This document shows positions 5,262 through 7,532 of a stretch of DNA of 64,000 bases, piece after piece; the stretch's first letter is position 1, and each line of letters begins with the position of its first letter. The DNA is from Chloroflexota bacterium (GTDB lineage Bacteria; Chloroflexota; Dehalococcoidia; Lucifugimonadales; Australimonadaceae). The stretch is from positions 1 through 64,000 of the forward strand of contig JAQCEV010000001.1 in assembly GCA_027618515.1 (NCBI GenBank). Direction: 5' to 3'. The position numbers were made by a program, and so were the translations under genes. The notes under the pieces were generated by a model, which saw only the letters and a list, made by a program, of their open reading frames with translations, did no database searches and was not told where the DNA came from.

Positions 5262-5618
5262 CTACCGGAGCATCTTGGCAACGGCGTCTAGGAGCCGTTG
5301 GTGGGTGAAGGGCTTGAGGACGAAGTCGATGGCGCCGTTGATCCTGGCGTCCTCCACGACCTCACGCTGGGCATCCCCAGTGAGGAGCGTGATCCGCGCG
5401 GAGGGGTCGAACTCCCGGATGCGTTTGAGGGCGTCGATGCCATTCATGTCAGGCATCTTCAGATCCATGAGCACCGCATCGGGGCGGGTGGATCTGTACT
5501 TATCCACAGCATCCACGCCTTCGGTGGCTTCGATGACCTGATGGCCCTCTTCAAGAAGAGACTCACGTATCCGCATTCTCATTAGAGAAAGGTCGTCAAC
5601 GACCACTATTCGAGCCAC
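5262..5618 (-). CDS. CheY-like response regulator, single receiver domain
   Basis: MARIVVVDDLSLMRMRIRESLLEEGHQVIEA...VLMDLKMPDMNGIDAL...LTGDA...FVLKPF; likely GTG start at 5618. Confidence 0.9.
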   Translation of the reverse strand: MARIVVVDDLSLMRMRIRESLLEEGHQVIEATEGVDAVDKYRSTRPDAVLMDLKMPDMNGIDALKRIREFDPSARITLLTGDAQREVVEDARINGAIDFVLKPFTHQRLLDAVAKMLR

Positions 5619-5810
5619 GGTACCGCCCCCTCCCGCGCTTCTTAACCACCGTATCGCCATCGGGCACGACTGTCGATATGCCAAAAGTACTAGAGCACTA
5701 CAGACCATCGTCGTGCCTACTACCTTTGGAGGGGGCGGCTAAAGACCACGGTGGTGCGGGACGAGTGGACGCTGGTCGATCGCAGGATCGAGATGTGCGT
5801 ACGCTAGCGT

Positions 5811-6068
5811 CTATCGATGAGGGTGCATCTCTGGCTCTTTACCGGGCCACATTCGTTCCCTGACCTGGAGCGCGTGCGGAGGGCAAAGGAGGGCCGCTAG
5901 ACCAACGGCGTCGTGGTGGTCCTCGTGCTCGACGTCTGTCTGGAATTCGACGCGGCCCCAGCCCGCCGGCAGGTATTGGTGCTCGACGCGGTCGGAGTCG
6001 AGGTACTCATCGGAGGTGTCGCAGTCGGGGTAATCGCACTTGATGGAAACGATGGATGAGTAACCGAT
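5811..6068 (-). CDS. Small conserved-looking protein (85 aa, CxxxxC motif), no canonical start; candidate AUC start
   Basis: Open frame (I/M)GYSSIVSIKCDYPDCDTSDEYLDSDRVEHQYLPAGWGRVEFQTDVEHEDHHDAVGLAALLCPPH...; AGGAGG (6080-6075) lies 6 nt before ATC at 6068-6066; no ATG/GTG/TTG between upstream TAG and this codon. Confidence 0.5.
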   Translation of the reverse strand: MGYSSIVSIKCDYPDCDTSDEYLDSDRVEHQYLPAGWGRVEFQTDVEHEDHHDAVGLAALLCPPHALQVRERMWPGKEPEMHPHR

Positions 6069-6263
6069 GGGGGGCCTCCTGGATGCGTCTTGGCTGGGGG
6101 CATTCTAGGCCACGCGAGGATCGATAGGGGGCGGGGTTGGTTTACGTTGGCGCGTAGCGTCGTTCGTTTGGAACCGCCGCGGGCGCTAGCCTGCCCCGGG
6201 CCCGTGCCGCACTGGCGTGCGGTAGAGGGGCGCGATGGGCAGGAGTGAATCGAGGCTTGGTGC

Positions 6264-7532
6264 TTAGCCGTTGCCTTTGCGGGCGATGGCGGCGTCACGG
6301 GCTTTGGTGAAGAGCTGGTCGACTTGGTAGATGGCGTCGCCAGGCAGAGTGCCGGTGTTGCCGTAGAGGGCGTCGCCGGGGACGTAGGTGCTCATGTCGC
6401 CGTAGTCCTCGATCTCCAGGTGGAGGCGGTCGTGGGGCTCACGGAAGACGTTGATGGGGTCACCACCGTCGCGGACGGTGTCGATCTGCTCTTCGAGCAA
6501 GCGACGGTAGAGGATCAAGCCCTTGTCTGACTCGGCGAGCTTCTCCTGGCTGCGATCCATGATCTCGTCCTGCTCCTCCCAGACAATGAGGTCTTGAGGG
6601 AGTATCCACTCCGGGAGGTCAACGACGGGGACGTCGAAGACCGGGACGGGGTACTGCTCGGGAACCTTGATGTCGGCGCCAGGCTCATAGATGTGGTAGA
6701 CGAGGTGCCAGGTGTGGGTGTCGTCGATGGTGACGCGGATCTGGAATTCCTGCTCGCCACGTTGGCCTATGTGAACCATGTTGGGGAACACCAGGGGGTG
6801 TCCGTGGTTCCAGCCCTGGGATGTGGCTTCGTCCTCGCCCTCCTGGAGGCGGAACTTGAGGATGCCGTACTCGAACAGCTCAAAGGCGATCTTGGCGTGG
6901 TGGCGCTTGGCACGCCGGAATCCACGCCAGCGGCGTTCATCGGTAATGCCCAGCTTCTCGAGTGCGTAGAGGCCCCAGTGGCCGTGGTCCCACTCCAGGT
7001 GGGTCTGGTCGATGGAGTTCTCCTGGCACTGGACCCAGTTGGCGTTGAGGAAGGTGGAACCGATCATGCGGAAGGCGTTGGGCTGGACGAACAGGCTCCA
7101 CTTGGGGAGCTCGGGTGCAGGCAGCGGGCCGATGTACCCGAAGATGAGGCCGCCGAGCTCTTCGACGGGGTAGGAGTCAATCTGGACGCGGGAGGCGAAG
7201 GTGCTATCGGCGTTCTCGGCAGGCATCTCAAGGCACTGGCCTTTGGTGTCGAACATCCAACCGTGATAAGGACAGCGGAGACCTTCTACCTCGGGGATGC
7301 CGAGGCGCAGGTTGACGCGCCGGTGGGGGCAGCGCTGGCCGATGAGGCCGATGTTGTTGGATTTGTCTCGGAAGAGGGTGAAGTCTTCGCCAAGCAGTCG
7401 CACGGCCTTTGCGCCAGGTTCCATCAGATCAGCAGAGGTGGCGACGGGATACCAGTAGCGACGCATAAGTTCGCCTCCTGGGGTGCCGGGGCCGACCCTG
7501 GTTATCTTTTCGTTGGTTTCTGAACTAAGCAT
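6264..7532 (-). CDS. Rieske (2Fe-2S) aromatic ring-hydroxylating dioxygenase-type oxygenase
   Basis: Rieske motif CPHRRVNLRLGIPEVEGLRCPYHGWMFD. Confidence 0.9.
   Translation of the reverse strand: MLSSETNEKITRVGPGTPGGELMRRYWYPVATSADLMEPGAKAVRLLGEDFTLFRDKSNNIGLIGQRCPHRRVNLRLGIPEVEGLRCPYHGWMFDTKGQCLEMPAENADSTFASRVQIDSYPVEELGGLIFGYIGPLPAPELPKWSLFVQPNAFRMIGSTFLNANWVQCQENSIDQTHLEWDHGHWGLYALEKLGITDERRWRGFRRAKRHHAKIAFELFEYGILKFRLQEGEDEATSQGWNHGHPLVFPNMVHIGQRGEQEFQIRVTIDDTHTWHLVYHIYEPGADIKVPEQYPVPVFDVPVVDLPEWILPQDLIVWEEQDEIMDRSQEKLAESDKGLILYRRLLEEQIDTVRDGGDPINVFREPHDRLHLEIEDYGDMSTYVPGDALYGNTGTLPGDAIYQVDQLFTKARDAAIARKGNG

Follow-up and report, generated by a model that had tools for sequence, protein, structure and literature searches.

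The window, a stretch of 64,000 nucleotides from a Chloroflexota bacterium, carries on its minus strand a small open reading frame that is flanked upstream by a gene for a Rieske [2Fe-2S] oxygenase and downstream by a gene for a CheY-like response regulator (Table 1). The oxygenase (422 aa) is separated from the small frame by 195 nt and does not overlap it. Rieske oxygenases of this type are greatly expanded: each of the five relatives searched has 37-81 matches. Although an ATG at 5708 is the listed start of the CheY-like gene, its conserved domain and a GGGAGGGGG motif favour a GTG near 5618 on the same strand, located behind the motif, and this is probably its true start.

Table 1. Features at and around the small-protein gene (positions in the window)
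Feature	Position	Strand	Basis
Rieske [2Fe-2S] oxygenase, upstream neighbour	6264..7532	-	PF00355, E 2.6e-19
In-frame TAG bounding the small-protein frame upstream	6105..6107	-	Sequence
Shine-Dalgarno AGGAGG, 6-nt spacer to ATC, predicted weakly structured region	6075..6080	-	Sequence, folding
ATC codon at the start position; ATG in the sole homologue	6066..6068	-	Sequence and alignment
Small-protein gene, 85 codons plus TAG; candidate zinc-binding	5811..6068	-	Homologue G011:C52, dN/dS
CheY-like response regulator, downstream neighbour	5262..5708	-	PF00072, E 3.3e-27

An open frame without a canonical start

An earlier note on this DNA had described an 85-codon minus-strand frame (6068..5811), AGGAGG exactly 6 nt 5' of an ATC codon, and no canonical start between the upstream in-frame TAG and that codon, all of which is borne out by the sequence and by a scan of the frame. 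Read along the minus strand, AGGAGG (6080-6075) is followed by CCCCCC (6074-6069), ATC (6068-6066) and GGT TAC, and 84 further sense codons lie between the ATC and the TAG that ends at 5811. The upstream in-frame TAG is 12 codons from the ATC, and neither ATG, GTG nor TTG occurs from that TAG through residue 72; the first canonical start in the frame is an ATG at residue 73, which is 3' of both Cys/His clusters of the encoded protein.

By itself the open frame is unremarkable, because 38 of the 302 long frames in this GC-rich window are equally start-less (stop-to-stop frames of at least 90 codons with no canonical start in the first 60 codons), and the window has 45 copies of AGGAGG. Taken by themselves, the open frame and the Shine-Dalgarno motif are little proof of a gene. 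AGGAGG at 4-10 nt from a start constitutes the strongest Shine-Dalgarno class here and is found at 15 of 201 gene proxies of the genome, and very few of 200 shuffles fold as weakly as the leader of the small-protein gene (z +2.0). No sigma-70-type promoter for the gene was found by consensus.

A homologue in a sister genus and the position of the start

Homologues were sought in the genome itself, in its relatives, and in the family, the order (250 genomes) and samples of the class (393) and phylum (400). The sole real relative is encoded on contig C52 of genome G011 (JADFQE010000027.1), a Chloroflexota MAG from the same family and a different genus, and is 60% identical to the window protein over 83 residues, nearly its whole length (E 2e-35); none beyond G011 was found in the order or in the class and phylum samples. 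No convincing relatives were detected in phage and plasmid collections or among solved structures. Two other matches were judged to be chance: a weak one (L075) is antisense to a transporter gene, and a viral one (L011) shares the string WPGEEPEP but belongs to a different protein. A further short viral match (L012) resembles the latter.

Differences between the window gene and its homologue are distributed 19/15/36 over the three codon positions, a third-position excess with p = 0.005, and dN/dS is about 0.24-0.28. Given that the relative is 60% identical, that dN/dS is low and that the candidate metal ligands are conserved, the frame is, on this comparison, a genuine protein-coding gene. The suspicion that gene callers would overlook a coding gene here was therefore well founded, with a homologue at E 2e-35 and no canonical start, and the homologue search that had been proposed as a check returned one relative rather than none.

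The frame of the homologue is closed by a TGA four codons upstream of its ATG, which is its first possible start and aligns exactly with the ATC of the window. Because the only possible start of the homologue aligns there, comparison supports the ATC codon as the start position of the small-protein gene; upstream of the aligned start, no clear similarity between the two sequences was seen. The earlier note had proposed asking which codon aligns to the start, and on this point the position matches, whereas the codon differs, being ATG there and ATC here. Three features expected of a near-cognate start are thus present, namely a conserved coding frame without a usable ATG, GTG or TTG, a homologue (one only) that places the start at an AUN codon, and a strong, well-spaced Shine-Dalgarno motif (AGGAGG, 6 nt). 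Conservation of the near-cognate codon, a supporting rather than strictly defining feature, is not supported, since the sole homologue uses ATG.

The protein itself carries the CxxxxC pair and the later Cys/His cluster that had been pointed out previously, in the form C11-x4-C16, H48/H51/H52 and C62-x2-H65, and C11, C16, H48, H51, H52, C62 and H65 are conserved in the homologue. Two conserved Cys/His ligand pairs (C11/C16 and C62/H65), as in treble clefs and zinc ribbons, are therefore present, in two sequences only; a zinc-binding fold is plausible, and the protein probably forms a treble-clef-like domain with a single zinc. A low-confidence structure model built from the two sequences (pLDDT 57, pTM 0.43) shows strands at 38-47 and 52-61 followed by a helix at 63-73, and because of that low confidence we draw the zinc domain from the conserved ligands and not from the model. 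Profiles from Pfam, NCBIfam and PHROG gave no convincing match; the best, phrog_11377, is weak (E 0.022), covers residues 7-37 (5958-6050 on the minus strand) and is also obtained with the homologue. This uncharacterised phage protein family of 57 positions is possibly a distant relative of the small protein.

The gene occurs in two of the 250 genomes of the order and is absent from the other genome of the same genus, indicating a dispensable gene that may be in decay. Nor do the two genomes share the gene order: upstream of the small-protein gene stands the Rieske oxygenase in the window and an MsrB-like gene in G011.

infC starts and the initiator tRNA in the lineage

The translation initiation factor gene infC (IF3) begins with ATA in the window's genome. 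We compared infC loci across the order (L045, at G000:C45:13512, and L046-L074), and at the aligned start of the 29 scored loci found ATA in 21, ATC in five and ATT in one; the remaining two start one codon away (ATA or ATT), and ATG stands at the aligned codon in none of the 29. The ATC starts belong to G002, G008 and G011, which are the three genomes tested from the genus of the homologue (g2), and to G038 and G035. Some of these starts are read from conservation and not from exclusion, because a few loci have canonical codons further off in frame. Nevertheless, AUC starts very probably occur for infC in this bacterial family, so that the comparison with infC-like noncanonical starts made in the earlier note holds within the lineage, including AUC in infC of the sister genus. 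With infC starting at AUA here and at AUC in the homologue's genus, the host appears to tolerate AUN starts in principle.

None of the 42 tRNAs found has an unusual anticodon, and the one with initiator features (L099, UGCGGGG...GGGCUCAUAACCC...) has the anticodon CAU; a special AUC-reading initiator tRNA was therefore rejected. With a CAU initiator, AUC would be paired through a third-base C·C mismatch, which is weak, and IF3 discriminates against third-base mismatches in vitro (PMC10158994).

Translation from AUC and its alternatives

The reading that we favour, although we would put it just short of even, is that of a genuine accessory gene translated from AUC at a low, IF3-sensitive level, the gene being an accessory member of a narrow Chloroflexota family. 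Use of AUC in the cell is plausible on the sequence evidence. The codon that is AUG in the relative reads AUC in the window's genome, and the full AGGAGG with its 6-nt spacing and weakly structured leader would place the ribosome and present AUC in the P site, where the ordinary CAU initiator tRNA would form two good pairs next to the mismatch. Initiation would likely be weak, clearly below that at an AUG and sensitive to IF3, and would yield small amounts of an 85-residue protein that starts with fMet-Gly-Tyr-Ser and probably binds one zinc ion via C11/C16 and C62/H65 in a treble-clef-like manner.

Two alternatives stay serious, because there is one copy of the gene and one homologue. The first is that the ATC arose as an error in sequencing or assembly, or came into the consensus from a minority strain, and that the cell has an ATG and hence an ordinary gene. 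We consider this unlikely, though well worth weighing: the homologue starts with ATG, ATC differs from that codon in one base only (C for G at 6066), six C lie immediately 5' of it, and the assembly is a draft of 178 contigs. Against this, consensus substitutions are rare in well-covered assemblies, the gene shows no further damage, and it lies on a contig of 103 kb.

The second, also unlikely in our view, is a recent start-loss allele, in which a dispensable gene without its AUG is now essentially silent and starting to decay. The patchy distribution of the gene, including its absence from the other genome of the genus, and its unconserved neighbourhood fit such a history. In addition, a random non-canonical change of ATG gives ATA, ATC or ATT in three of seven cases, and for this reason AUN is itself weak evidence of use. 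An ATG-to-ATC change has been interpreted as a disruption in a Neisseria PAAR gene (PMC10210955), and in B. subtilis a rny-lacZ fusion was expressed much less strongly when its start codon was mutated to AUC (PMC10303841). However, the small-protein frame contains no stop or frameshift, and its Shine-Dalgarno motif is still complete and surpasses that of most genes in strength. The purifying selection seen on comparing the two lineages also speaks against silence, though it says nothing about the time after the start change. Annotated genomes extremely seldom show a switch from AUG to AUN, with one AUU and no AUC in 61,358 (PMC5622118), and this rarity raises the probability of both a base error or strain variant and a start loss; annotation bias does depress the AUN count behind that figure.

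Other explanations are very improbable. A chance open frame with no gene would suit the abundance of start-less frames (38/302) and the lack of a Pfam or NCBIfam family, but is refuted in practice by the low dN/dS and by a homologue from another genus that is full-length and has a proper start. A different start or recoding, through a frameshift from an out-of-frame ATG about 35 nt 5' of the ATC or through a dedicated initiator tRNA, is just as hard to credit, as the homologue fixes the N terminus at the ATC codon, the alternative frame has no matching start in the homologue, and the tRNA set is ordinary.

The near-cognate start considered here belongs with those already known and is not a new kind. 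The infC starts (AUU, AUA or AUC) resemble it in being AUN in the same lineage and AUC in a sister genus, but infC is essential, with a conserved AUN start that is autoregulatory in E. coli, whereas the window gene is accessory and its homologue has AUG. Another likeness is S. aureus cvfC1 (61 aa), which is also small, possibly zinc-binding and equipped with an AUN start and a strong Shine-Dalgarno motif; its product, a putative zinc-finger protein, is made from an AUU that follows an extended Shine-Dalgarno motif and in poor medium yields about 10% as much as AUG; for cvfC1 (AUU) and ccpN (AUA) the level is about 10-30% of AUG (PMC13009471). Unlike the window gene, cvfC1 uses AUU, was shown by ribosome profiling and is conserved among staphylococci (PMC13009471), and no sequence relation is implied. 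E. coli pcnB (AUU; cited in PMC13009471) and Borrelia pncA/BBE22 (AUU; PMC13398362) likewise have third-base near-cognate starts outside infC, but these are proven experimentally and are not AUC; one of the two was misplaced by annotation. For Staphylothermus marinus L12ae, an ATC start was inferred only by alignment of homologues, as in the window gene, although that protein is archaeal and a likely essential ribosomal protein (PMC2678158).

Genes with AUC starts are systematically missed because gene callers do not report AUC. To our knowledge, such starts outside infC are almost undocumented. The AUC here would point to weak translation, to a start lost by mutation or to a wrong base in the assembly, and the small-protein gene, with its start position fixed by comparison, is a directly testable AUC candidate. 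It is possible, and we advance it tentatively, that a gene other than infC has switched between AUG and AUC, with low, IF3-sensitive expression for which a full Shine-Dalgarno motif compensates, in a lineage whose infC itself starts with AUA or AUC. Such lineage-wide infC starts make AUN starts trackable in uncultured Chloroflexota.
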